Positions 6,590-61,564 of a stretch of DNA of 64,000 nucleotides are shown here, piece by piece. The stretch lies in assembly GCF_000165425.1 (NCBI RefSeq), contig NW_001799222.1:248001-312000 (forward strand), given 5' to 3'. Position numbers and translations under genes: made by a program. How positions within the stretch are numbered: the first letter of the stretch is position 1; every line of letters starts with the position of its first letter. Source of the stretch: Paramecium tetraurelia. Its lineage: Eukaryota; Ciliophora; Oligohymenophorea; Peniculida; Parameciidae. A model generated the notes under the pieces. That model ran no database searches, had not been told where the DNA came from, and saw only the letters and a list, made by a program, of their open reading frames with translations.

Positions 6590-8123
6590 ATGACTACATA
6601 TAAAAGAATGTTTTCTGTTGTATTTTTTATTAATTCAATAAGACTAAGACAATTTTATATATATATTATTAATAAAATGATTAAGAATTGCATATATCCT
6701 TTAATTGGATTTTTTACTGTTGTTGGAAGAATTTTCATATTTTTTTGCTTTTGGTGGGCATATGATGGTGTTGAAGAAGCTTTCAGTGATAAAAGATTAG
6801 GGTACTAAAATGAATTTTATGCTTGGGAATCACCTCCTATTTTTAAAATACAGTAATTATTCTCAAACCCAAATTGTCCAGATGGAGTATGATAAGTGAT
6901 TAAATATTAGACTGAAATACTGTATAATTATATTTGGTAAGGGAGATAATCGTTCACAGAAGATGGAGTTGAATAAAAAAGCATCTCTTCACATCAATTC
7001 AAATTTTGGGTGTATGAACCTTTGCCTTCTAAGAAATTTATACTCTGCGCAACATTAGGATTGAAAAATGAGACTTATGCATAGTTTGGAAGAGTTAAGA
7101 AAACTTGTGAGGATAGATAAATGAGATCATGTAGTAATGGTAGGTTTTGTGTTCCATCTACTTATCAATATTGTCCAATTACTAAAGTAGAATTTGATGA
7201 AGCAGGTGTTCTGAAGACTGAAGTTGACCCATCCGAGATGCCTATAGCATATTTTAAGGTTGATACTTACTTTGTTAGTGTTTACAACAACAGAGATTAA
7301 AATTTGTATCCAAATCAACCTTAGGATGATAAACTTGTAGAGAAATACTCCTCTAAAGACATTGAATACAAAGATAACTCTTTCATTCCTTTAAATACTG
7401 TAAATGACTAATTATTTTACTCAATTAATTCAGCATCTGATTATGATCGAACTATAAGTGCAAATTACAATAAGACATTATTTTATAGAAGATATAAAGA
7501 ATGGTAGTATGAAGCATTGGGAGATTTATTTGACTATGCATTCAATATTTTTGATTCATTAGACGAGATTATTATGTTGTCTGATTCTGGTACAATAACA
7601 TCATTGATTTATCTATTATTGGTTTGCTACCTTATTCCAGCACTCCCTGTTATCTTGAGATTTATTAGTGTATTCAAAGTGGAAAACATATTTATTTGGG
7701 ATATTGTCATCAGAATGGTTTTGTTGTTTACATTGTTGGCTTAATCATTATATATTATTAAACAATGTCAAGATGTAGTAAACTATTCTAATCTATTATT
7801 AAAAAATGATAATATTGTTGGATTTGAAGTATATTTCATATCATTATATAAAGGATCAATATGATGGTGTAATCGAACTTATAGATGGGTAGGAACCATA
7901 TCATATAATTTCAATTGCAGTTTCATTAGGATTCTTAGGAGTTGAAGTATTTTTGTGGTTCACAATTGGTTTGAAGGCTTGTTTTGCTTGGATAATGAAA
8001 ATTTTTAAATAAATTAAATTCAAAAAATAGATTAAAGAAGAAATTCGAAGGGAAGAAGATATTGAGAATTTAAATCAATTACATTCAAAGCAAGGTAATG
8101 CGGAACAAGAAAAATTAAATTGA
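6590..8123 (+). CDS. Multi-span membrane protein with Cys-rich loop
   Basis: 494 residues, introns 6887-6910 (24 nt) and 7829-7853 (25 nt, ending AAAG rather than TAG). A hydrophobic segment near residues 35-55 (FFTVVGRIFIFFCFWWAY) is followed by a ~260-residue hydrophilic loop with several Cys (including CEDRQMRSCSNGRFC). Three hydrophobic segments follow: YLLLVCYLIPALPVILRF, DIVIRMVLLFTLLAQSLYI and IAVSLGFLGVEVFLWFTIGL. The tail is charged and Lys/Glu-rich. The layout suggests a receptor- or channel-like protein with a large extracytosolic loop, but I do not recognise the family. The start ATG at 6590 was preferred because the upstream sequence loses coding character. Confidence 0.75.
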
Positions 8124-10207: not shown

Positions 10208-11464
10208 TCATAAATCATATTTTTCTTCTCTCTTTCTCCTTGACTCCTTTATCTCATAATTCCTGATCATCTCATCCAATTATGGATCAGTCTTGCCGTT
10301 ATGAAAGATATTGCTACATGGTTTATTATCTGGCCATGGTACAATATCATAATGTACATGATTATCACCGCTATTCTCAAGCCAACTAAATACTAAGCAA
10401 ATATTTTACTCTTAAAATTTATCAGACAGTTTTCCTCCAGTAGCCATAGGAATTTAGAACTTTGGGTGATTCCAGGCTTCAGTCCAGATGACCATCTCAT
10501 TAAACACACAACTTATTGCCCATAATCCCCAGTCTGGTTTAGCTTTCATCAAATCTTTCAATTCCTATAAAATGCCTGATCTTATCTTCTCAATTTATTT
10601 CTTCTCTTTAGGAGTGCATTTATCTAAATGGATTTTCCCTATACATTCAAAACGGTCATTAACTTCTAATTACCACCAGTCATATTAAGAATGTACTATA
10701 AAAGTTGGGACATCCACCTTTCGAAGAGCATCAAAAGAGAAGATATCATTGATTGTAATACCTACTCTTTATGTGACCTCAGTATATGCATCTAGAATCT
10801 CTTGATTTCTAGAGATATCAAAAATGACACTATCAAGAAGGATTCTTAATTCAACATCTTCTGAATAAAACTCTTTAATGGCTGTTCTTAATTCATTATA
10901 TTTATTAACTAAATACCATCCTCCAACTCCAGAACCTGCTAAAATGATCCTTTTAGGAATTAACTTCATTTATGATAGTGCTCCTTTAAAGGCTTCTGGA
11001 TTCATTTGTTTATGCCACATACTACCATCACAATACATTAAGAACATTTTGTGTGCTTTTCTAAGATGTACATTCTAATATTGAGTATTTCCCATTAAAC
11101 CTTAATTTGCATTGAATTCTTCTGGATACCCGTTGCTAGTTCCATAAAATGTAGAATTTCGATGTGTGCAATTGTCAATGTAAGCATAATCTCCATATTT
11201 TAGAAATTTTGTGCTATCTTAAACACAGATTCCCCCAGAATAGAAATACATAACTAAATCATCAGTGCTGCCTTCAAAAACATAAGCAGCAGCTTTTGTA
11301 CCATCCATACAATAGGAATCCTTTAAATAAGTTCTATGCAATGGATGAGCAAATGAACTTTCTTCATCAGGTGGTTGATTTAAGAATTCATCATCCTCAA
11401 TAGATTCTTCTTCTCCTTGAGCTGCTAATAGACATATTAAAGATGCAAAATAAACAAAGTACAT
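10208..11464 (-). CDS. Notum/pectinacetylesterase-family protein lacking the nucleophile Ser
   Basis: 418 residues, intronless. It starts with a signal peptide (MYFVYFASLICLLAAQG). Family landmarks follow: YFYSGGICVQD, a Cys-rich CTHRNSTFYGTSNGYP block, and HKMFLMYCDGSMWH. The nucleophile elbow of Notum/PAE enzymes is G-S-[S]-A-G-G; here it reads AGSGVGGWYLV, so the catalytic Ser position is Gly. VPTFIVHSQYDWWQ aligns with the region of the acid residue. It is therefore probably a secreted or lysosomal non-catalytic paralogue, perhaps a ligand-binding or decoy protein. The fold assignment follows from the motifs; inactivity is inferred from one position and should be checked by alignment. Confidence 0.82.
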
Positions 11465-11514
11465 GCCCTATTTATATTTTTAATTATATTAAATTAATTA
11501 ATATCCAAAAAACG
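11465..11514. promoter_or_regulatory. 50-bp divergent promoter (Notum-like / ALDH)
   Basis: Only 50 bp lie between the two divergent start codons (11464 on minus, 11515 on plus). The region is A/T-rich with no clear motif. Both genes must share this segment or use signals inside the coding sequence. Confidence 0.5.
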
Positions 11515-13083
11515 ATGATTAAGGATGACGTATCTATTATTGCTCCAACCCTTAAAGAACTCAAAGCCAATTTCTTGACTAAAAAGTCTCGACCAATCCC
11601 CTTTAGACTTCAACAGTTGCATAACCTACTGAGAGGCCTTAAGGAATTAAGAAATGAGTTTTACGAGGCTTTTCAGAAAGTAATTTCTTCCTAAAATTCC
11701 AATAGGATTTAGGATACAAAGACTAATACTTTTGTGAATTGGTATAGTATTAAGCAGTGTTAACCCATATTGAATGTGATATCAAAAACATCTACAAATA
11801 CACAGCCAAGAGATCCGTCAGCACATCCATCATGGCAGCTCCAGGAACAAGTTATTTAATACCAGAACCCTACGGAGTTGTCTTAGTAATAGGAGCTTGG
11901 AACTATCCAATCTTCACTTGTATCCCTTAACTATCCCAAGCTATAGGAGCAGGAAATGCAGTTGTTGTAAAACCCTCTGAGTTGGTTCCTCATGTTTCGA
12001 ATATCTTAGCAAAATTGATAACGAATTATTTGGATCAATCTCTCTATCGTGCAATAGAGGGAGGAGTTAATGTAGCAATTAATATTACCAAATAACATTT
12101 TGATCTTATCATTTTTACAGGAGGAACAGAAAAAGGAAAACTAGTAGCCAAAGCTGCAGCCGAAAACTTGGTTCCTTGTATCTTAGAACTTGGTGGCAAA
12201 GGACCCTGCATTATTGATTCATCAAGTGACTTAGCCTTAGCTGGAAGAAGAGTAGTTTCTACAAAATTATTGAATTGTGGTCAAACATGTGTTGCTCCAG
12301 ATTATTTGTTAGTGGAAGAATCAATCCTAGATAACGTTGTCAACACTTTCAAATAATAAATAAAAGACTTCTATGGACCTGAAACCAAAAATTCTGAATG
12401 TCTGAACAGAATAGTTAATGAATTCCATACCAATAGAATTGCTGAATTATTAAATAATCATGGAGGTAAGGTTGTTCATGGTGGTTAATTTGGCTTAAAA
12501 GAAAAGTGGATTGAACCAACATTTGTAGTTAATCCTGATCCTAATAGTGAATTGATGAAGAATGAAATCTTTGGACCAATACTTCCTATTATAACCTATA
12601 AGAACATCGAAGATGCTATTAATTTTATCAATTCTAGACCTAAACCATTGGCTCTCTATTATTTTGGTACAAATAAAGCCCATAAGAATGCTATTCTTGA
12701 ATCTACATCATCAGGAGGTGTTTGTATTAATGATTGCATCTTTCATTTAATTAATCAAGAATTGCCATTTGGAGGAGTAGGTGATAGTGGCTATGGAGTT
12801 TGTGGTAGTAAATTTGGATTTGATCAATGCCAACATCTGAAACCAGTTCTTGAGAAATCAACAATTGATCCATAAGCAAGGTATAATATCTTCGTTATTT
12901 CTTAGATATCCACCATACACCGATAGCAAAAAAAGCTAAATGAAATTCTTAAGTATGCTAGGAACATAGACCCAATCAGAAGTTTTGTATAAACTATTAT
13001 TGGTACTCCTTCTTTTGGGAGTAATTATATACGTAACATGTTTTTGTGGCTGTTCTAAAAATAAGCAATAAGCCGATTTATGA
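11515..13083 (+). CDS. ALDH3-type fatty aldehyde dehydrogenase with C-terminal membrane anchor
   Basis: 505 residues, introns 11680-11705 (26 nt) and 12881-12905 (25 nt). ALDH motifs in order: GVVLVIGAWNYP, KPSELVPHVS, FTGGTEKGKLV (NAD binding), ELGGKGP (catalytic Glu), NCGQTCVAPDY (catalytic Cys), EIFGPILPI, ELPFGGVGDSGYG and PPYTDSKKSQMKFL, the last typical of class 3 ALDHs. After the second intron a hydrophobic helix (LLLVLLLLGVIIYVTCFCGC) precedes a short basic tail. That tail-anchor layout is known for ALDH3A2/FALDH, the ER enzyme that oxidises long-chain fatty aldehydes to acids. All catalytic residues are present. The substrate class is inferred from the anchor and family. Confidence 0.93.
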
Positions 13084-32067: not shown

Positions 32068-32628
32068 TCATTCCAAATTTAAAACATGATTCTTGAAATA
32101 GGTGATTTTGCTATGAGTATAGATAGCTGCATTTGTAACACCGCTTGCTGGATAGCTAGTCTTGGAATATCCTGGATCATTAACGTTGAAAGTGTCACCA
32201 GAATATGATGTCATCAAAACATAATGTCCACCATTGTTGACACATAAGATAACGTGTTATCCAGCATCAAATTTGCCTTTTTATTAATATTAGTAAATAC
32301 CTTTAGCTTATGCAGCTGTGACTTTTCCTTCATAAATGAATCCAAGATTCTTAATTGAACCCCAAACAAATAAGTCTCCAGAAGCATATCCACCATTCTT
32401 CTTCAACCAAGTATTCATTGTTCTAGGAGTAGTTGTTCCATCGGTTGTGACACCATAAGTATGTAACATCATAGCAACTGATGAAACTAAACAACCAGCT
32501 GAACAAATGGTATTTGAACTTGTGCCTAATTAATCCTTGCCCCAAGTTGCATCACACTGTTTGTATAATGTATATGATCTCGCATGAGCGACGGCAATAA
32601 TCAACAATACACTAATCACCTATTTCAT
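32068..32628 (-). CDS. Secreted C39-like cysteine protease domain protein
   Basis: 186 residues, intronless. Signal peptide MKQVISVLLIIAVAHA, then a single domain of the peptidase C39-like type: YKQCDATWGKDQLG (Gln of the oxyanion hole and the usual Q.D..W motif), CSAGCLVSSVAMML (catalytic Cys), GGHYVLMTSYSG (catalytic His), FNVNDPGYSKTSY (Asp/Asn). The triad looks complete. Such small secreted proteins are known in ciliates. Their function is not established; phagosomal digestion or defence are guesses. It converges on the AP-2 alpha gene with 56 bp between stops. Confidence 0.85.
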
Positions 32629-34249
32629 TATTTTTAATTATGTCACAATGAGATGACGTCAAAGTTTATAAATTATTATTTTTTCTGTATAATCCACTAT
32701 TTTTCAACTAATAAATAAGCAGTTTCTAATTGAAAGAATTACTTTAAAATATGTTTGATGACAACCTCAAATTCAAATATATATTCGAAGCCAGAATTTC
32801 ATGAGTAAAAGATTCCCAAAATACAATATAAAAATATATATATATATTTTTGTGAATTTTACTGTTGAAAATTGTAAACAACACAAATATTCAAAAGTCA
32901 TATTAATCATTCTTTTCTCTAATTGAACAAAATTTTGTTTAAAAATAAGAAGTATGGAAATATTTATGCTTTCATCTAAATTACCAATAAACTATCTTTA
33001 TATATATAAATATTAGGAATTCAAAGAGAATTTGCCAACGTATTATAAATTCAAATTGATTTATAATTTTCGATTATTCCTCATATAAGAAGACCTTTCA
33101 TCACCTAATGAAATATAATAGAAACTAAATATTTTTTTTATTAATATCCAACAGAATATTCATTTTATATTATATTTAAAATTAGTTTATCCTCGAAATA
33201 TATTATTAAAGATGTTTAGAGCAAAAAACAATTAAAAGTAAACAAAAGTTAATTCCATTTCTTCCAATTACTAAAAATCTATTTGTATTATTATTCATAA
33301 ATTAACATCCATAAAATCATAAAGTAAGTTTGTTTATAAATAATTAAAATTAAAATACAATAATAAATCCAGAAAATTTAGACAAAATTGTAGGAAACAA
33401 AGAAATTGATTAACCCAAGATTCAAATTTAGCAGCAATAATAAAAATAATATTATGATGAATATTTAATCACTTTTAAAATCTATAATAGAACTAACTTA
33501 ATAAAATTTATATTGTATATAACAATAGGAACATGATAGGATAATTTTTCAGTAAATATTACAAAAGAAGTAGATATGTATAAACGAAAATTATAAATAA
33601 ATTATGTATTTAGTATGATATATTTTGATATTTATTCTCAATATTTTCAAATTTAAATTAAACTATATTAGAAGAATGATAAATTTTAAGTTTAAGAAAG
33701 GTGAATTATCAATTAACACTACTCATGATAATATGAAAGAAATTCCATCAAAATCCAAATCAAATTGAAATACATCTAATAATAAGAATTTTTAGTATGG
33801 TTAGTTATATTTGATATAGCCAAAATCAAAAGCAATTTAAATTGGCTTCATAATTTGATAAAAATTATATATATTGGGTTAAATACAATATTCCGATTTT
33901 ATTGTCTTGATATAATTCATTTATATTACAATAACTTTATATTTTGAATTTTCATGTCAAATTTAGATTATATCTCACAATATTAATATATAATCCTAAT
34001 ATAGATGAATTATATCAACTCAATAAAATTGGCATATTTTATTGACTCTACATATATTTAATTTATATTATATAATTAAGCCAATTCAAAATTCCTTTTT
34101 GATTTCGAATGCAAATAATATGATTTAACTGCTTTATTGGCATCATTATGAATTACAATTTATTACTATTAGACATGTCTAAGCATAAATTAGTCATCCA
34201 GATCAAAACAAATATAATGAAGAACATATATTAATTATATATAAGGGAA
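32629..34249. other. Long A/T-rich, gene-poor region before assembly gap
   Basis: 1.6 kb with no convincing gene, unusual in this otherwise packed window. A possible fragment on plus starts at ATG ~33211 (MFRAKNNQKQTKVNS), with a Gln-rich run (IQQQQQKQYYDEYL) near 33425-33465 in another frame; no splice pattern joins them well. Open frames of this size arise by chance when only TGA terminates. The rest is TA-rich with many homopolymer runs. It may be low-quality contig end sequence, decayed genes or a true intergenic block. Confidence 0.4.
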
Positions 34250-45262: not shown

Positions 45263-47577
45263 TCAGATATTTAATGTCTTTATCAGGTTTCTAACCTCCT
45301 TGTACAAATTACTGAAATATCCTTCCACTTTGAATCCTTACTTTGTTTTACTTACTATAACCTAGCCATTATTCAAACTTATCTGACAAAATCCTAATTC
45401 CAATTTTAAATCCCCTCTCTTCTTTAATTCTTCATACAAGGCCAACAACTAAATATTCTAATGGCAAATCGGTTTTTTATTTTAGGTTGCCACCAACTTT
45501 AAAATCTAACTCATAGTTTGGGTATTTCTGAAGATTTTTAATTCCAATTTCCCTTTTACTTATATAGCTGATCTAATCTCAATCTATTTTTCAGACATTT
45601 CTACAAAAGGTAAATTTTATCCATCATTTAAAGAAATAAGTGATTATGCTTGGCTTTATTTTGCTACTGCTAATTACACACCACCTTGTCGAGGTTTTGT
45701 ACTTGGATTTAATATTAATAAATTCTAAGGGTTTAAATATTCTAGAAGCATTTAAGCATTTCTTAAATTTTAAGGTAGTTATTTAACAGATACTGTTGCT
45801 TAAACTGTCAAAACTTTTTAATTCTAAACTTTGTTCATATTAGGCATAGCAAATGTTGATTCTTGCAACTTCTATTTTTCATTCTCAGCATCTTATTCTT
45901 CTTCCATTTATTAGGTTTGTGTTTCTATTTATTATCTTCTCTTGCTCTTCATTAACTTAATATGTTTAGGTATATCTGAACCATAATCATCTCTTAAGTG
46001 AAGTTATTATATCGGTCTAAGTGGCTTGTCCAATTAAACTGTTGAAAATTATATTTATTCTTTAATATAGTCAATTCAAATATACCTTTAATTTCAGTAT
46101 CGATAAAATACTATTAATTATGTGACTTATAATTATTTTTATCAAATAAGGGTTCAAGGTTTGGTTTCTAATCACTAACAACTGAAAATTGATCATCTGT
46201 CTTTTAGTTACCAATATCCACACTCTGAGTTTCCACTAAATCAGTTGTACTTCCAGGCAAGTAAGTTGTACTCGGCGCATTAGATATAATTTTATTTTCC
46301 TTCTCGTTTGTTTTTAATAATAATCTAAATTAATAAATATCATTTACTTTCTTATATAGTTTAAATTTATTGAATAGGATTCCTTGATTTATAAATTCAA
46401 TTCAAAACTCTTCCTAATTTTCCCCATATTTTCATTAATTAAACAAGGTGGCTTGTCAAAAATAATAATTGTATTGTTTGGATCAGTTAATAAATTCTCT
46501 TGAAAGAAGGGACCAGAAAATAAATTATTATAGGATGTTAGTATAATTTATGATTTAATTTTAGATTAATTATCATAATTAAGCGATTAAATGTTATCCC
46601 AACATAAAAATTCTCCAAATGTCCTTGCTTTATCAACTAAATCAAGATATAAAACATTTATATCCCATTTCATTCCTACATACTTCTCATTTTCCTTAAA
46701 TATTTAATGTAGAGATTTAATTCCCTCCAAAATTCTCTCATTAGGGTAAAATGCAAATATTAATTATCCTTATTACTTTTTATGATATAAACTTAATTCT
46801 TCTTCCATTTTAGTCTTAATAAAGAATTAAGGAGGAATACTCAATTAATTGATTTATGGTTATACTATTTCCTTGGGATAATTCTCCAAAATAAGTAAAT
46901 CAACAATTTCTCTATGAAGAAGTGATTATTTTTAATTTTTAATTAACAATCGTTCAATATTCAAAGAATCGATGTGCAATTCTTTTATCATATTATAATC
47001 TGTGATGTAGATAATATTTAATGTGTTCACTTAAATTTTCCATGCACATGCACCTATAACCTTACCTGCTCTAATAGGACAAACAGTAACTTAAAACAAT
47101 CCATTCTCAAACATCATAGTTTCATTCTGTCCAAATTTTAATGGTTTAATTTGACGATATGCATCATCTGCAGCATCTAAAATTCTCTTCCAATCTTATT
47201 TAAAATCTTCTTCCATAATTTCTTTTTTAAGAAATGCTTATTATAAGTGTATCAATTGATCTACAAAGTTTCTGACTCCAAATTCAATTATTGGGCTTGT
47301 AGATAAAGTTTTTATTTAGAATTCAGAAATTAAAGGGAGACCTCCAGCATACTCAATTGATGGTTATGATAGTAGCACTAATTTAGACTATAATAGATTC
47401 ATTCATTACTTTCTAAATTTTATTCATATAATGCTTAATGTGATTGCATTCCAATCTTTAATTCAAACCACAATCTAACATGATTTATAATTTGTGATTT
47501 TTCTATTCAATTATCAATAACAAACACAATGCTCCATTTTCAGAAATGGTTTATACACTAAAAACTTCCACTTTCAT
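45263..47577 (-). CDS. CPSF2: CPSF2 (CPSF100), cleavage and polyadenylation factor
   Basis: 746 residues, introns 47388-47409, 46383-46408 and 46060-46085. Start: MKVEVFSVQTISENGALCLL then MLDCGLN, as in the metallo-beta-lactamase fold of CPSF100. Where the nuclease CPSF73 has its metal-binding SHxHxDH, this protein has LSQPSIEYAGGLPL, so it is the expected non-catalytic partner. Further blocks: IKPLKFGQ, CPIRAGKVIGACAWKI (PAGHMIGG in animals), YNNLFSGPFF, then the beta-CASP insert, VQLDKPLRPIQQL, a charged linker with KLMKSKRR, and the C-terminal domain ending FKVEGYFSNLYKEVRNLI. Works with CPSF73 and symplekin at mRNA 3' ends. Confidence 0.9.
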
Positions 47578-48438: not shown

Positions 48439-51400
48439 TCAACCACTTTTTATTTAATGGGTTACTTAACTGACTTCTTCAATCCATACTTAAGCTATCA
48501 TTTAAGGCTCCATTGAAGCTTATATTTTAGCAAAACCAAAGTATTATTTACCGAATTCAACAACCCGGACCAATGTCGTTGGAGAATCTTCAAAAGAACA
48601 AGCAACTAGCTCTATTTTTTCTCTTTTATCTGAAGGGAATTATTTAACTTTCTCCATTGCTTTTGTGGGGTATTATGCTTATCCATCAGTGTAGAAAAAG
48701 ATAGAATGGCTATTTATATATGAATATTTACGAACTAAAATTGTCAAAATCTGGATTGTTAGCAATTTTATCAAAAGCAAGTTTTAATGGTTCATCAAAA
48801 TCAGTTCCTCCACCTCTAAATTGTATTTCCTTTTATTAAACTTAAGCATCAGGGATTTCATAATCAACTACACATCTGGCTTAGTGATTAAAAAGTATAA
48901 TAGTAACCCTAGATTCAGGATTTTTTTGAATTTCTTAAAGAAAAGCCACCAAGCCTTTTTTAGCTGCTTCAAAAAATGCTCCTTCCATTGAACCAGAGTC
49001 ATCTAATATAAGAATATAATGGGCAGTTTTTTAATTTCCACCTAATTAAACTTCTTACTTTGGAACATAAAAGACATCTTTTCCAATTTCTTAAGTCAAT
49101 TTTATGCAAATCATTCTCCCAATATTATCATTCCAAATCTTCATGAACTTCTCCTTCTGAATATTTAATTCATCCTTACTAAGACATGAAAATATCCACC
49201 CATTATAAAGTTATTTGATATCCTTCCATTTTTTAATTATTGATGTTTCTAATAGTGAAATTTAATAGTCATCCTATATTTCTTCACATGTATATAATGA
49301 AGGATGACTACCTATTAAGACTCCAGTCATACCTATTTTAAAATTAAATATTACCTCTTAATTAATGCCCATTTTAACATTAGTGTTTATGACTACTATC
49401 ATCAATTTCTTAATCGCACTTCCTCTTACAAAGCGGGCAAAATTACAAACAACCGATTTATCTCAGTTATTAAGCATCTAAGTCATCTTATAATTTTAGT
49501 GTTTCTAATTGAACCTGAATCAAATCTGAATTTTTAATGCCCAATAAAATCCTTTATTTAAAAGCTTAAACAAAATTAAATAATATTTATATTTCTTCGT
49601 CTGACTTTTAAATAGTTGAACATAATGGTAACTCAAATCTGTGAAAATCTTAAGTTTAAAACACATGAATTTTATCTTATTTTATTTTTTCTAATAAATT
49701 CTATTCTACGTATCCTTAAAGACATCCTAAAGTTATTTTAAATAATAATTTAGGAGCTTCATCAGGGTTCTCCTACTATACGAAGTAGTCCTTTGCTTAT
49801 AGAGGAGAAATAACATAATCATATAAATATTTTGTGTTTGCATCCACTTTTTGAAGATATGTCTTCAAATCTTATTATAGTTTACTTGTAAATTTGGTTT
49901 GAATATCTGATTTTAATTTATTAATATTGTCTTTCACGAATCTTTCAACATAATCTGTGTGATTTTTTATATAATGTAGTCTCTAATCATCAGTTATACG
50001 ATTATCATTTCTTTCCAGAATATCTTTGTCTAGTTATTTTATAATATCATAATTTGACTCTTTATTAAATCCAGCCCAAATTTATTTAGCTTCTTCACAA
50101 TATGACCTCTGAAATCTTGCAATTGTTTAATTTATAATTTCTTCTGCTAATGATTATCCTCGAATTTTGCTTTGTTCTTTATTATTCTATTAAATATCAG
50201 CCTTAAACTTCTGATATTGCACTTACTCTTAACTACTCAACTATTCTGAAGCTCTCTCACATGATCTATACTATTTAAAGCACAAAACTCTCCAAATACT
50301 AAAAATGGCATAATAATATATGCATCTTTCTCCTATATCATTTAAAATCACACCAAAATCTGAAAATTACATATTTAAATCTTTTATTTTACCTTCTATC
50401 TTTTATAAAATCCTTTTGATTAAACCATAACTAAATTATTTAGCCTTCATTTCTTTAATTTCATCAAGTATCATTTAATGTATTTCACTATAGACTTTTT
50501 TCCATCTCTCATAATTTATATCGCTCATTAAATCTTCAATATACCTAGCAATACTTTGCTTAAAAGTATTTTCATATTAAGAGTTTTAATTTCTATTTAA
50601 GATATAACTAAAAATTTATTCACCTCTATTAATTTAAGATCCAGTATTTTATTTTAAAATCACCTATTACTTAACTGATACTAAAAAAAATTCTTTTTCA
50701 TTAAACCTTCCTTTAAGACTTTCTATTTCATTATTCTAGGACAGATCAGTAATCAAAACATGTCTCTTATAATAATTCATCAAGTTTTTACAAATTTTTT
50801 TTATCATATCGATTGAAGAATCGTATTAAGCATCTCCGAAATATTACCTTTCTCCAGGTTAAAAGCAGGAAGATAGCATATTTATATCAAATCTAGATTA
50901 TTTATTAACAGAATTAAATAATTATTCTGCTTTTAATTTAGAAATTTCATAGCCAAACAAAGAGAAATTTTGTAAAAAAGATGTAAATGAATACTTATCT
51001 ATTCCCTTTTCCTTTTTATATAATTCAAGATCAATAGACAAATCTTTTTATTTATATTTATTGAAATCTTCTTTTGTTAGATATATGATTTCTACTTAAT
51101 TAGAATAAAATTAATTGATTGATAAGACTTAATTAGGTGAACATCTTGCAATTTTCTTTTCAATGCTTTAATTAAAATTGTCATAAAATAATTAATTTTT
51201 ACTAGAATTTGCTATAAACATGAGTTAAGCTGTCGATAATTCCGGTTTTAATATTTCTAATGATGTGAGATAGTCAATTTATTTAGGTTTTTCTTTATTT
51301 AATTTTGCAATGTATTATTGTTTATAACTATTTTCATTTTTTGTTGTCAAAATATAGTTTTTGAAATTTTCCTTAATTACCTTTAACAACTGATCGCTAT

Positions 51401-54400
51401 AACCCATAAAACTTTTATCTTATTTTTATTTGTCTTATGTTAATATTTCATTCCATAGTTGCTTAAACTTACTTTCAATCTTACTTTCATCCTCTTTATA
51501 TTATTTTAACTGGTTTTCATTTCCAATTAACTATTGAATAAAATGGTCAATTTTTATAAAACCCATTTTCTGTTAAAAATTAGTTTCTTAAATTCTAATT
51601 TCTGATAGCATTGCCAATGAGATGGCTGATCTTTCACTATCAATTCTAACTTAAACCATATTTTCATATTTTTTGATTACCTTTTTTGATATTTTATGTT
51701 CATTTTTTATTTAAGTTAATTTTTCTAAAAATTCATTGTTAATTTAATCAAATTAGGCATTCATTGATGTAGTAAATTCACTTAATATATCATTTAAAAT
51801 TTCTATAGACAAGCTTTCATTTCTCTCTGATATATTTTAATGAATTTGATTAATAAATTAAATTTTTGTAGGATACTAATAATTGTTTATGATTTCATTA
51901 AATTATTTTCTCATAAATTGATTTTATTAATGCTAAATTAACTCAGAAAATTCAAGTAAATCAGGTAAGGTTATAATGCTTTTCCAAGTGGTTTCAATTT
52001 TTTCTATAAAATATTTTAAATTTTCCATCTATCTTCTTCCATCTAAATCGTCTTCCCTTCCAAACTTATTTACATATGCTTGAATTATTCGAATTCCTTC
52101 TTCATAAGCTTCTGAAGAGAAAGTGCCATTTAGAATTAACTGGCGCCAATCTGCATACACCCCTTCACTATCATTTTTTTTCCATAACTTTTCAGTTGAT
52201 GCAAACCCTAATATCTTAACATTGTCTTCAGTAATTCCAAGAATTTCATTATAATCTATTTATTCAGTCTCCTAATTTTAATTGCTTAATTCGTTATTTA
52301 AATTTGTAGCTATTGACACTAACTAGACTAAAAAAGGATCGCGATTATTGACATCATTATTTTAATTAAAACACCAAGTAATTGATTTTGTACTTGTAAA
52401 ACTTTTCATTTATCCTAGAGTATATATGCACATTTCAACTAATTCTCTAAATTATTTTGTTATATCTCCTTTCACGTTTACAAGAATAATATCGCTTATT
52501 GATAATACAAAAAGTGCTATTTTTTTATCAAATTCCAAATCCTCTTAATTTGGGCTCTAAAGACCTTCAGTATCCAATATAATAATGTAGTCAAATAAAT
52601 TATTAAAATATGCTTTATTATGCACTTTCAATAATTGCAAATATATTCCTTTAGTACATCTACCAACACTTGTCCAAAAATGGCATCCAAATATTTTGTT
52701 TAAAATTGTTGATTTGCCAGAACTTTGTGGACCTAATACACTTAAAACTAAAATTCTTTCTTAACCTTGCTCCTTAAAGTTAGATATTAGCTTTTATAAG
52801 AATGGTTAATCGATTTTTAATGAATCACCATCTAAGAATTCAAATGGTTCTCCTTTAACGATCATTTCTTTAACAATCTTTAGAAGGATCAAAATCAATA
52901 TGTGATTGTTAACATTATTCTCTTTAGGATATAACTTCTCTCCAAAATAATTCTATTCCAATATGTCTTTTTGATATTATATCAGAATTCTATTTCAATT
53001 AAGCAAATTATTTATCTATTTTTGTTTGCATTTAAATTATTTATTCTTATAAATAATAATTATTGCCATTCTCTCTTTGATTTTATAACTTCTTCTTTTC
53101 TCTATTTAATTGTTAAATTTCTTCATTAAGTTTCTAATTTTCTCTTTATAGTTTGTAGGTATTTTTTTCGTTAAATTTTCTAATTTTATCAACAAAATGT
53201 AGATATAATATATAGTAGTTTGGTCTTTTAAAAATATTACAAAATTAAATTAAAATTTATGTAGGTTTCTATAAACTAATAGAACTTTACAATTGTTTTA
53301 TTTTTAAACTGATTTAATTGAGTTTTTGTTCAATTTATTTGTCTTAATGACTCTTTTAAATTTTCTAGTATTCATCTTTCTCTTTTTTGATTTACCATTC
53401 AATACTTCTCAATGGAAAAGCATTCTAATTATAGAAGCCATCCACATGCTCCATTTAGATTTGCAATTCTTTTTCAATATCTTAAAATAGATCTTGAGCT
53501 TATTGAATTTGAATTTTTTGATCTTAAACACAACTTACCATGTTAAATATTTAGTTCTTGTATTGTTCTTATTTCAATGTGAAAGATTTATTTTTATTGA
53601 TTAAATCAAATAAAAATTATGATGCTTATGCAATTTCAGCTTACTTCATTTAATTATTTAGATCATTATCTGATAAATCAATTATTTGCTAATATTAAAT
53701 ATTAAGATATTATAATTCTGCAGTTTCTTTCTCATCTAAATCCCTTATTGAATTTCGAATTAAAAAACAAATAACATTTTATTTATTTTTAAAAGATTTC
53801 AACTTTTATAAATTTTATATTGTTTCTTTAATTTCTCTCTCAGTATCTAATTAAATAATCCACATCCTAAATAGAGGTAGGATATCATCTAAAATTTCAT
53901 AAGGGATAAAACCATGTGAGTCTGCAACTGATAAATTTCTTGATCCATTAAATTCAAAATCATACATAATATCTATTGTTTGCTTATTCAGATAATTGTT
54001 GTCTGATATTTCAAATTTATATTGTTTATAAAATATTTTATTAATTAAATCTGTTTTTCCTATTCCTTTTTTGTTAGTTGGCCAAACTTAAATTAATAAT
54101 AGAATAGTTTTCCTCAAATACATAGAATGTATTAAAGTTAAATGTTAGTTTGTCATATTCTCTATCTTTTGTATCGTAAGAAGTTCTGTATAGTAATGGA
54201 ATCGGATATTGTTTACTAATAAGTTTTAGTAGCATCACTTTCAATTCCTCATCAGCATTATTATAAAATATTTAAAATATGGACTTTTAATTAAAACAAC
54301 CATATTTGGTCCTTAATTCTTCTTATTTAATTATTTATTTATTAATAATGGTTAAGAATTCAGATGATGGTTCTCCTCTTTTTATAATATTAAAGAAGAA

Positions 54401-56654
54401 TGGTATTAATTATTTAAAAGCTTCAGGGTCTTTAACCTTTTGAATCCAATTCTTCACCAATTCTTCCTATTATTGCTTATTTAACAAAGTCAATGAAATA
54501 TTAAAATCTTCTAAAGATATGTTTAGAGATCTTGGATAAATATCACGCATAATTTTTTATTGTAGCTTTGTAACTTCTAATTAATCTATGCCAAAATAGT
54601 TAATTTTTGAGAATTTTTCACTATACATATTGGGATTTTATTTGCAAAACAATTCAGCATCAATCTGTAATTTTTATATTAATTTATTTTACCAAAGGTA
54701 AACTAATTTAAAAATATTTATTATCTATTCCAAACTACTTTCACTTAAAAATAATTCAAGAAAATGATTGAAACAATAGATTGATGGAAATATTGAAAGA
54801 CTTTCTATGGCTTTCTTAAAATGTTTCTGTTGATTTTATCCTTACGATTACCTGAAAACCTTATATAATACTGTTATAGTTGTAATATAATCATCTAAAG
54901 AAATCTGATCTAAATTTCTTTGATATATTAATAGATGTATTTAATCAATTTACAAGTATTAAAAAAGAGGAAAGAAAAAATTGGTGTATTAATTCTCCTA
55001 TTCTAACTGTTAGTTTATTTAAAACAATCTTCTTAAAACTTCAAGGAGTTAATAATGATTTTAAATTAAATTTTATAAATATGATTCTATTAAAGTATTG
55101 ATGAGCGCATTTTAATTTAGAACCAATTTCAACTGATCATAAGAAAAATAGTAAAGCATTTAAATTTTTTTTTCAAGTGGTAAATTTTCATCGTATTCAG
55201 CAACTTTTAGAATATTTTCTTTCTCAGTTTGACTCCTATCTTATGATAAAACAGAATAAAGTAGTTAAAAATTAATTATGCTTTGATATGAATTTTCTAA
55301 AACAATTCTAAGAATAATTTCTAATTCTTGAGGATAAAAATTTTATTTTTATTATTCTAATATCAAAACAACTTTAATTAAACTATCCTACTTCATAATC
55401 GTTTCTAATAGTTTTGCTACTTTGCGTATCTTTTCAGCACTTATATTTGTCAGCAAATTAAAAAATTTTGGATTTTATTATGAATATGACTATGAATTCA
55501 AGTTTACGACATGCTATTTTTTAATCAGATTATAAAAATTTTTCTTCAATAATAATTTCTATCAATTCGCTGAAAGACCAAATTTTCCATTTATCCAATT
55601 CATCTTTTCTGACACATTAATTTTTGTAATACGACTAAACCCTATTTATTAGCTCCATATTAAGTTGGTTATTTTCACTCACTCTGCATTAGATGTATTA
55701 ATCAAGTTACATATACTTTTATACTTTATTATTTTAGGCCAAAATTTTTCTATAATGATTGTCAAAGCTAATTAAACAGTAGAAACACATCAAATAGAAG
55801 ATATTTTAAAGATCAAAATTTATTGGTAATAATTTTTCTATCAAATTTTCAACAATAAGAAAATTTAAATTCCCTGTAGTATTATTATTTAATAATTTAT
55901 TCAATAATTGAATTATTGAGTCATGTAATATTTTTAAGTCTTTCTTCAACAAATTTAATATTTCTTATAGAGCTTTTAACTGAAGTTAGTCTTAATTTTT
56001 CTATTATAACTACTGATAATGATATTCAAATTAAATCCAACTATTACATAATATTTCTCCTAATATTTGAAACAATCCTGTTTTTTCTTAATCATTTATC
56101 TCTAATTCTTTAGGTAGAAAAAAAAAAAATATCAAATTTTTCAAAATAATAGAATTTAATTAAAATGAAGTATTTCTACACTACAACATTAATTCAATAA
56201 TTCTAAAGCCATGATGTTGAAGTTTTTCAAAAATATGTTTTTACCTTTACAAAGAAGTTGGGAATCTACAAATTACAAAAAAGTCTCTTTCTTCTAAAAG
56301 TTAATGAAGACTTATCCAATCTTTATTTTACATTACATTATACAGTCTATCATATTATAAATTAATCTTCTTATTTTCCATTAATCCGAAATCGTTGACG
56401 CTGAATGTCTGTAAAATCCTCCTTATCACTCCTTCATTTAAACTGGCCCTCAAATTAATAAGGTCACTATTGTTAGGAAATTGTGAAATGAGATATTCGA
56501 TAGCCAATTTTTTATCTTCTTTTTTTTTCAATTATCTGAGGAAAAGGTCTAATATTTTCTTAAAAACTTCTTCTGAAGAAAAAATGTTATTTGATTTGTC
56601 TTCAGCTATGCTTTACAACTCCAAAGTCTTATTGTATTTTGATAATGCAGACAT
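48439..56654 (-). CDS. Giant VLIG/GVIN-type GTPase with upstream GTPase-like module and C-terminal vWA domain
   Basis: An 8.2-kb gene, about 2,600 residues, with many tiny introns that I did not all place. It starts MSALSKYNKTLELQSIAEDK (56654). The first ~800 residues are helical. A degenerate GTPase-like module follows: TNKKGIGKTDLINKIF (P-loop-like, ~54040-54090) and NLSVADSHGFIPYE (D-x-x-G, ~53905). After ~300 residues of coiled coil comes a canonical VLIG-type G domain: LGPQSSGKSTILNKIFG (P-loop, ~52685-52740), SVGRCTKGIYLQLL, IIILDTEGLQSP (~52555-52595), FVLSISDIILVN. A long helical stalk leads to a vWA domain: YILILDDSGSMEGAFFEA (MIDAS, ~48980-49020), FRGGGTDFDEP and IFFYTDGQAQYPT after a 22-nt intron at 48710-48731, ending at TGA 48439-48441. 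Nucleotide-dependent self-assembly is inferred from the family. Confidence 0.85.
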
Positions 56655-57437: not shown

Positions 57438-59291
57438 TCAAATTTCAGCAAAAATTATATTGAATGTTCTTTTATTCCAATTGGAAAACATCCCATCTGC
57501 ATAATCCATAGGACCAGGTAGATTATTTTTTGGAACACTTTTTGAAAATCGTTCTTACTATTGATATAAATTTTAGACTATTACTTTGCACATAAATGGA
57601 GGAGGATCTTTCTTTTTCTTTTTAAATAATCCTAATTAATTTTATGGTGATTTTTCTAAATAAGGAGGTTCATCATCTTCTTCATCTTCATTTACTTCTT
57701 TTATCTTCCATCTTTCAGCACCAACACCAAATGGTGGTTTAATAACTGCCAATTTAGGATCATCTTCTTCTGGTTTGATAATTTTATTAGCAATTGTATG
57801 TGAATTAACATTATATGCACCTGGAGCTGGATTGATGTTTGGGATTGATAAATCCTAACTTTTTGGAGCGTGACTCATAAAAGCGTATGTTCCCTTTTGT
57901 TCTGGTAATTTCTTGTCTTTTTTTGCATCATCAAGTTTATCAACTTCATATGCCCCAGGACCAGGAACCAATAACTTTTGTTCTTTGAATCTATTCTCAT
58001 TAGCTCCAAACTATCCTAAAGGAGCCTTCATTAATTTTGAGATCAATCTCTATTCTATAGTATTCGCAGCTTTATATGACCCAGGAGCAGGAGTCTCTGA
58101 CTGTTATTCTTCAAACCTAGTTTTGCTTATCAAAAATGGAGGTTAAGCACCTTTATGTCGATGAGCAGTTACTTCCAATTAATAACTGCCAGGACCAGGA
58201 GTATGCTATGATTTTGATTGAAATCTTTTAGTTCTAGTTTTAATCGAGCCTTTAGCTTAAGATTTATTTAAAAATTAAGAAATCGTTTACTGAGTAGAGG
58301 CATTTTCATAGTAACCAGGACCTGGTGTTGCATCCTATATTAAATGATATAAAATACTTCAATGTAACTATATTCTGAATCAACATCAGTTTCTCTGGCT
58401 GTAGTTGCTGGATTAGTAGATTGATGAAAACTATATTATTTATTATCCAATCCTTTTTTGATATATCCAGTGTTGTTTTTGAGATTTTAAAATTTGAAAT
58501 CCGATTAGCGACTTTGTTTAGAACTGAATGCTGTGGTTGGTTTCATTTAGTACATAGGTTAGGATTGACCGCATATGTCATAATAACCAGGGCCGATAGG
58601 TGACTAATTGTCTTTTTTGTCTTAGCTTCTTGGCTTATGCCATGATACTCCTCTTGGTTTTGTATTGTTGAATGTACTTTTAAGATCGTACGATCCGGGT
58701 CCAATATCATAAGATATGTCAACAGGATTTTATTCCAACTGATTGTCTTTTTATAGTATTGAGTATTATAACCTTTATTCTCAATGTAGCCTTGATGAAC
58801 ATTAGAAGGAATTGAGGGTATGCTTAAGTATTTGTTATCCCTAGCCAATTGTTCCAAAACATTTAGTTTTTTAGGCCGATTGGCTTAGCCGGCTGAATGA
58901 AATTTCTTCCTTTCATCTTAAAAGTATTGAGTGGGACTAAGGATAAAATAAGTTGAGTATACCTAGGTCCTTCAAATCTATCCTCCTTAAATCTCACAGT
59001 AGTGGATCTGAAAACTGATATTGGTTTAGGTACTTCCAAAATTTTGATTTCTTATTCGTCTGATTAAAAGATTACTTTTTGGCACTCGAAGGAGCCTTGC
59101 AGGTTGTAAGTTCCTGGGCCGGGAATAGGATTAAGCTTATCAGATTTATTTATTCTTTCGACAGTTGAATTGAAGGGATGATGATTGGCCCTATTTTCTA
59201 TTTCAGGGATGTGATCATATTGTCCAGGTCCCACTAATTCAGTTTTTGGAATATACGTTCCTCTGTTTTCACTTCTATATACAAAAGCCAT
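57438..59291 (-). CDS. Sperm-tail PG-rich repeat (SHIPPO/STPG) protein
   Basis: 592 residues, introns 58937-58962 (26 nt), 58747-58772 (26 nt) and 58335-58357 (23 nt). About nine PGPG-type repeats are spread along the chain: GPGQYD, GPGTYN, GPGSYD, GPGYYD, PGPGYYE, PGPGSYQ, PAPGSYK, PGPGAYE and PAPGAYN, each usually followed by a basic F-rich stretch. It begins MAFVYRSENRGTYIPKTELV. The C-terminal ~110 residues include an acidic run (VNEDEEDDEPPYLEK) then basic residues. Such proteins are microtubule-associated components of flagella and cilia. Which STPG paralogue this matches is not settled. The second MORN gene is immediately upstream, 33 bp away. Confidence 0.9.
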
Positions 59292-60531: not shown

Positions 60532-61181
60532 TTATATTTTCAAATTATATAAATAATTGATTTGATAATTTTACACATTCAAACCTTCTAATTTATATTT
60601 AAGTATCACAACAATTTATCCCATAATGAAACATTCTTATTAAGCATTTTGATACTTTTGTCTAAGATCCTTTTAATAGAATATTTATGTAATTTAGTGA
60701 TATCACAACAAATACTGAGATTTTTATCAAGTTTTTAAAAATATACTCTAATTTTATTCACTGTAGTGCCTTATTTTATTCAATAACGCTTTATGATCAG
60801 CCAGAATAATAATTTTGAATTAAATAGCATACATTTTGTATTTGATTATAGATTTGATTACACAACCATATTTATAACATTTAATTTAATTTTGATAATT
60901 AATATCTGCGTTGAGGTACAACGATAATACTTGATCTAATGAAAGATATGTAATCTAACTTGTTAGATAGTCATTATGCATTTACCGAAATGACTGGTGT
61001 CCTTCTTGGAGGGGAATTTAAGAGTCAATAAATTAGTTAATAAATTATATACATTATAACACCAATAGTACGTAATATCTTGCTTTAATTTATTCGATTA
61101 TGAAATATCTTAATTTTCTTAGGTTCAAAACTACCCAACATATCCAAAAAAATCATTAATAAACAATCTAGAAACTCAAAA
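60532..61181. other. 650-bp divergent intergenic region upstream of hemoglobin
   Basis: One of the longer gene-free stretches, between divergent MORN and hemoglobin starts. A locally less A/T-rich block at about 60935-61030 (around TCATTATGCATTTACC and GTCCTTCTTGGAGGGG) stands out; a 34-codon frame starts inside it at 60990 (MTGVLLGGEFKSQ) but has no other support. The block could be a regulatory element for hemoglobin or a small non-coding RNA. No tRNA fold was seen. Confidence 0.4.
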
Positions 61182-61564
61182 ATGACACTCTTTGAATAAT
61201 TAGGAGGTGAAGCCGCTGTCACAGCTGTTACAGCATAATTTTATGCTAACATCCAAGCTGATGCCACAGTTGCCAATTTCTTCAATGGAATCAACATGGC
61301 TGACTAAACAAACAAGACAGCATCATTTTTATGTGCTGCTCTTGGAGGACCAAAGGCATGGGGAGGCAGAGTACTATAATTTATGTTAATATTTATTAGA
61401 ACTTAAAGGAAGTTCATGCCAACATGGGAGTCACAAATGCTCAATTTACAACAGTCATTGGACATTTGAGAAGTGCATTGACCTCAGCTGGTGTTGCTGC
61501 TGATTTGGTTGAATAAACCGTCGCTGTTGCAGAAACAGTTAGAGGAGACGTCGTCACAGCCTGA
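61182..61564 (+). CDS. Truncated hemoglobin (2/2 fold, group I; Paramecium hemoglobin)
   Basis: 117 residues, one 29-nt intron (61371-61399) after GGPKAWGGR. The sequence [20 protein letters not shown], then [20 protein letters not shown] and [20 protein letters not shown], follows the trHbN pattern: the LGG N-terminus, the B-helix Tyr in AQFYANI, and the proximal His in EVHANMG. It closely resembles the Paramecium caudatum hemoglobin as I remember it, including presence of a single tiny intron. Cytosolic oxygen binding is the accepted role; some group I members also turn over NO. Codon use is noticeably more GC-rich and Ala-rich than neighbours, consistent with high expression. Confidence 0.96.

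Follow-up and report, generated by a model that had tools for sequence, protein, structure and literature searches.

A predicted VLIG-type GTPase gene with a C-terminal vWA domain in the ciliate Paramecium tetraurelia

The window analysed here is a stretch of 64,000 nucleotides (nt) of the Paramecium tetraurelia genome (contig NW_001799222.1, positions 248,001 to 312,000), and all positions given below are those of the window. Its subject is one proposed gene, at 48439..56654 on the reverse (-) strand, which runs from an ATG at 56654-56652 to a TGA at 48441-48439 and comprises about 2,725 codons in the ciliate code (code 6). The DNA around it is gene-dense and contains 22-26% guanine plus cytosine. 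The encoded protein would start with a helical N-terminal region, followed by a first, degenerate G module (LG1) and a coiled linker. Next would come a second G domain (LG2) and a helical stalk, and the C-terminus would carry a Cys/His motif ahead of the vWA domain. Judged on its sequence, this is a VLIG-type GTPase combined with a vWA domain, and what sets it apart is this vWA and its occurrence in a liate.

Under the standard code, the largest open reading frame between 46000 and 59000 is 104 amino acids long. Reading TAA and TAG as glutamine opens a frame of 1,236 codons (52994-49284), which identifies the code as the ciliate one. This frame is not a product of chance; the longest open frame in 200 first-order Markov sequences of the same length was 448 codons. 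From the ATG at 56654 to the final TGA, the coding sequence passes through frames f2, f0, f1, f2, f0, and f1, and the sole TGA of the conceptual translation stands at its very end. A preliminary description, made from the letters of the sequence, had picked out the motifs GPQSSGKST, RCTKG, LDTEGL, GIGKTDL, ADSHG, and DDSGSM, all of which are present on the reverse strand when TAA and TAG are read as glutamine.

LG2 (52223..52924, or 52763-52223 when delimited more narrowly) is recognised by both profile and motifs. Its G1 (GPQSSGKST, 52733-52707), G2 (RCTKG, 52661-52647), and G3 (DTEG, 52574-52563, within LDTEGL from 52577) motifs are unbroken, and a G4-like CFNQN lies at 52373-52359. The best Pfam match is URGCP_GTPase (PF25683), with 141.9 bits against a cut-off of 55 (E = 3.1e-41). 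The VLIG assignment of the preliminary description thus stands, and by these profile and motif matches LG2 is a VLIG-type G domain. By analogy with its relatives, it would bind GTP and dimerise. For human GVIN1, a published AlphaFold3 model shows an N-terminal domain, an LG domain, a helical linker, a second LG domain, and a C-terminal domain, in that order (PMC11974893).

The second-best Pfam match of LG2 is RHD3_GTPase (PF05879; 53.4 bits, cut-off 42.4, E = 3.2e-14), and the best match in the PDB is SEY1 (4e-10), accompanied by GBP2 (4.7e-4), GBP5, and GBP1. The protein might accordingly be read as a membrane-tethering or fusion GTPase like SEY1, RHD3, or atlastin, whose GTP-driven dimerisation draws membranes together. 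This is unlikely, as the URGCP_GTPase score is far higher, no SEY1/RHD3/atlastin-type hairpin was found by hydropathy after the helical bundle, and an order with two LG domains is that of GVIN1. The SEY1/RHD3/atlastin proteins and GBP resemble LG2 in the G domain, whereas the present protein is much larger, carries a vWA domain, and probably has a second G module.

Relatives of LG2 were sought in collections of prokaryotes and viruses, where an empty result says little about eukaryotes. None was found there in viral contigs (1 pattern match) or genome contigs (15 pattern matches), a tblastn search against phages gave no match, and a two-row alignment of LG2 with a SEY1 stretch yielded no relatives among 118 genome-contig and 171 viral-contig matches.

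The vWA domain (48442..49027) is also recognised by profiles. The vWA exon matches VWA_2 with E = 4.3e-10, and once spliced, the domain reaches 48.7 bits (cut-off 27, E = 1.3e-12) over profile positions 2-107 of 107, together with matches to VWA (2.2e-8) and PDB entry 8s05 (4.3e-7). Its motifs are DDSGS (49003-48989; DDSGSM, 49003-48986), GGGTDF (48814-48797), and FFYTDG (48699-48682). The pattern of the metal-ion-dependent adhesion site (MIDAS), which we take to be DxSxS, T, and D, is matched by DDSGS, GGGTDF, and TDG, and the predicted MIDAS is complete, with its motifs unbroken. Upstream of the domain lies the Cys/His motif CPLCKRKC..HKHQCQNGHQ (49362..49439), also unbroken, which has no Pfam match and is a candidate zinc site. 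It is preceded by the helical stalk, or C-terminal helical region (49440..52222), assigned partly from a structure model of 52922-51303 and for the rest from sequence. NCBIfam gave no matches for two GTPase pieces and three vWA matches far below the cut-off, and PADLOC assigned no family to three proteins.

Two canonical introns of 22 nt, both of the form GTA..TAG, connect these parts. The first, GTAATATTTAATTTTAAAATAG (49333..49354, reverse strand), links the GTPase and vWA exons, and the second, GTAAATATTCATATATAAATAG (48710..48731, reverse strand), lies inside the vWA domain, where it is the only GTA..TAG candidate. The gene parser, which allows GTA..TAG introns only, chose both when its start was left free; of the 19 genes that it predicts, 16, the present one among them, receive introns of 22-31 nt. 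At the first site, two longer GTA..TAG candidates (25 and 34 nt) would join the same frames, and other parser settings replaced the intron with a base skip at 49463 while keeping the second intron. Were the first intron retained, the GTPase frame would run into a TGA immediately below 49284, and the vWA and GTPase could then be separate neighbouring genes misread together. Such a misreading is very improbable, given that the two frames share 179 nt (49462-49284), leaving no intergenic gap, and that the parser finds similar introns in a further 15 predicted genes. There is consequently good support for assigning the predicted GTPase and vWA exons to one gene, as the preliminary description had proposed for its MIDAS-bearing vWA.

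Upstream of LG2, a coiled-coil or helical linker is predicted from the sequence at 52925..53699. It includes LQRENQKLNEEIQQLNREKKKLQ at 53151-53083, and its end modestly extends the URGCP_GTPase match. Before it lies LG1 (53700..54171), with the motifs GIGKTDL (54066-54046), ADSHG (53925-53911), and CFLIRN (53769-53752); the first Gly of G1 is missing from GIGKT. When LG1 was attached to the LG2 core, the MMR_HSR1 profile scored 35.7 bits, compared with 21.4-23.2 for six shuffles and one reversal of LG1, a gain of 12.5-14.3 bits over these seven controls. With another choice of junction, the score was 37.7 bits against 22.0 for one shuffle, and without the P-loop part of LG1, it was 27.9 bits; over all joins with the real LG1, the scores were 35.7-37.8 bits. 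None of the eight shuffled or reversed controls kept the gain, and LG1 thus carries a GTPase-like signal. The protein that contains LG2 probably has LG1 and the linker in front of it. Two open frames, one of 451 codons and one of 516, cover the N-terminal region (54172..56654), and neither of its frames (56654-55434 and 55561-54011) has a Pfam match above the cut-off.

Several observations weigh against a second G module and against an uninterrupted gene. LG1 alone has no Pfam match above the cut-off and no PDB match, and the additional MMR_HSR1 stretch alone passes a threshold of E<=1 and fails at E<=0.01; the position of this stretch is not reported in the search output. The RHD3, GBP, and Dynamin_N profiles show no clear gain from LG1. 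An alignment of LG1 with LG2 is not significant, since 75 of 2,000 shuffles reach its score, which is also equalled by two of 39 other protein windows. An AlphaFold2 model of LG1, made from the single sequence without homologues, had a mean predicted local distance difference test (pLDDT) value of 35.3, with no fold seen; helix and strand alternate in it, a pattern that carries no weight at such low confidence. With respect to the gene, the parser with a free start begins at 54123 and leaves out 56654-54124, about 2.5 kb, and the N-terminal region is therefore the weakest part of the gene model. Forcing the start to 56654 places frame changes, by codon scores, at 55511, 54109, and 52875, and no plausible intron was found at any of the three, which are called A, B, and C below and are absent from the preliminary description.

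The poor structure model of LG1 does not itself argue against a G fold there, because the same method also failed on LG2, whose identity is certain by profile. The corresponding model of LG2 and the start of the stalk (52922-51303, 540 residues) had a mean pLDDT of 44.1 and again no visible fold. The 47 of 540 residues with values of at least 70 lay in helices after LG2 (373-409 and 413-467), where 10-residue means rose to 77. Structure prediction, which the preliminary description had put forward for both G modules, thus returned low confidence and no fold for either, and the profile searches it proposed placed LG2 and the vWA domain above their cut-offs and left LG1 alone below. Its putative second G module is supported as a GTPase-like signal, LG1 raising MMR_HSR1 without matching it alone.

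The frame changes are all of +1 and on the reverse strand. At A (55400..55560), there is no in-frame intron of 18-34 nt. At B (54060..54115), the in-frame candidates in this size range are GTT..AAG (22 nt) and GTT..TAG (28 nt), both of which cut into the P-loop, and GTA..CAG (31 nt, 54216-54186), which lies upstream of the site. At C (52832..52935), in-frame introns of 16, 25, and 28 nt starting with GTT depart from the GTA..TAG habit, and those of 25 and 28 nt would remove residues of the URGCP match. All three are close to short runs of A or T, which are found everywhere in this DNA. Assembly errors may lie behind them, yet the apparent frame changes in two neighbouring genes (described below) fit introns of 26 nt that end in AAG, and these genes therefore do not show that the assembly is error-prone in general.

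Continuity across C was assessed from the URGCP_GTPase score, which was 150.3 bits for the joined frames, 145.4 for the unbroken downstream frame, and 143.7-147.3 with five shuffles of the upstream piece. The gain is therefore small, at 3.0-6.6 bits over the shuffles and 4.9 over the unbroken frame, and in longer proteins it falls to 1.0 (141.9 versus 142.9 bits). A larger difference (138.7 versus 150.3 bits) would by itself argue strongly for a single domain running across C, an argument weakened by these matched controls. Support from the sequence for continuity between LG1 and LG2 across C is modest.

Frame changes without plausible introns mean that the gene could be broken or split. Either the locus is a pseudogene or decaying paralogue from which no full-length protein is made, or the 5' frames are separate from an LG2-vWA gene whose own start may be an ATG near 52865. 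The frame changes, the omission of 56654-54124 by the parser, the lack of a demonstrated assembly problem, and the small gain at C all speak for this explanation. In contrast, no TGA occurs before the end, the G1-G3, MIDAS, and Cys/His motifs are unbroken, and the order LG1-linker-LG2 is that of GVIN1. A broken or split locus is thus doubtful, although a realistic prospect that carries more weight than the other alternatives, and the 5' half, comprising the N-terminus and LG1, is probably joined to the rest.

The hydropathy of the whole protein was surveyed in windows of 19 residues, and no convincing signal peptide or membrane span was found by this means. The first 25 residues, which fall in the weakest part of the gene model, have a mean hydropathy of -0.51, that is, no hydrophobic N-terminus, and the eight best windows score 1.11-1.62 (best, 1.62), the top two lying before and inside LG2. 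The protein is therefore probably cytosolic. This does not agree with the adhesion-type head suggested in the preliminary description. Domains of the vWA type do occur in integrins and in the SibA-SibD adhesion receptors of Dictyostelium (PMC2651865), and the protein might on that ground be thought a surface or secreted adhesion protein. Such a role is hardly credible for a protein with neither a signal peptide nor a convincing membrane span, with G domains of cytosolic type, and with an order of GTPase, putative zinc motif, and vWA that is known elsewhere.

This order has a precedent in the cpRAS-VWA proteins, which combine a GTPase, a Cys-rich motif, and a vWA domain; the report on them also describes zinc-vWA paralogues and larger vWA families in Tetrahymena and Paramecium (PMC2430557). 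The cpRAS-VWA proteins may themselves be cytosolic. Their GTPase part is of Ras type and circularly permuted, with the order G3-G4-G5-G1-G2, whereas the present one has the order G1-G2-G3 and belongs to the URGCP/VLIG family. The resemblance is one of domain order.

The closest parallel in overall layout is provided by GVIN1, with which the predicted protein shares the URGCP_GTPase domain, very large size, and, probably, the LG-linker-LG order. Since the GVIN1 model already holds two LG domains, two G modules are not unusual, and the weight that the preliminary description placed on the second module is not justified. In contrast, the vWA domain is a departure from the known GVIN-type layout: the text available for GVIN1 names a 'C-terminal domain' and no vWA (PMC11974893). 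GVIN1 is also intronless and interferon-inducible, while the present gene has introns and belongs to a ciliate. Among the matches listed for open-access papers, there was no VLIG-vWA protein, no ciliate VLIG, and no paper containing both 'VLIG' and 'Paramecium'; UniProt or InterPro may already hold the architecture.

Taken together, we consider it about an even chance (roughly 0.5) that the gene encodes a cytosolic dynamin-superfamily GTPase of the VLIG/GVIN branch that forms GTP-driven assemblies and uses its vWA as a Mg2+-dependent docking domain. GTP binding would bring the LG2 domains of two molecules together as a dimer, in the manner of GBP, atlastin, and SEY1. LG1, having lost a proper G1, would act as a structural or regulatory partner of LG2. 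Through their helical parts, such dimers could then form polymers that serve as a scaffold or coat for a surface in the cytosol, such as a phagosome, symbiont, or vesicle membrane. The Mg2+ site of the vWA would bind a specific protein ligand, and this ligand might either recruit the assembly or be recruited by it. Self-assembly can fairly be expected from the superfamily, and a coat role is suggested by extension.

GVIN1 coats cytosolic Burkholderia thailandensis (PMC11974893). This coating is a recent finding. Paramecium feeds on bacteria and bears symbionts, and interferon does not apply to ciliates. It is conceivable, if rather improbable, that the ciliate GTPase assembles around intracellular bacteria, symbionts, or vacuoles. 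Equally speculative is the suggestion that the vWA serves for recognition or as an adaptor, a part missing from GVIN1 or replaced there, that coat immunity of the GVIN type predates animals, and that ciliates have a form of it without interferon. If the gene is intact, giant GTPases of this kind are not confined to animals. The VLIG-type core domain would then be available far outside vertebrates, free of interferon, in an easily manipulated ciliate, where a point mutant of the vWA MIDAS would offer a handle on what recruits the GTPase.

Other genes of the window were noted in passing. A SHIPPO/sperm-tail repeat protein (PF07004) is encoded at 59291-57438 on the reverse strand, with a frame change near 58728 that fits either a 26-nt GTT..AAG intron or one missing base. 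A metallo-beta-lactamase protein (Lactamase_B_6; 47402-45263, reverse strand), presumably CPSF/Integrator-like, has a frame change at 46060-46111 that fits 26-nt GTA..AAG introns, and AAG-ending introns may thus occur in this species. A gene at 6677-8123 on the forward strand has a frame change at 7862 without a GTA..TAG intron, and its longest frame has no Pfam match. A pectinacetylesterase-family protein (10211-11560) and a C39-like peptidase (32071-32658), both on the reverse strand, have predicted hydrophobic N-termini and are therefore likely to be secreted or lysosomal. Finally, a gene for a truncated haemoglobin, with one predicted intron of 29 nt, lies at 61104-61564 on the forward strand, and its frame 61104-61466 matches PDB entry 1dlw, which we take to be from P. 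caudatum, with E = 8.9e-30 over 64 residues.

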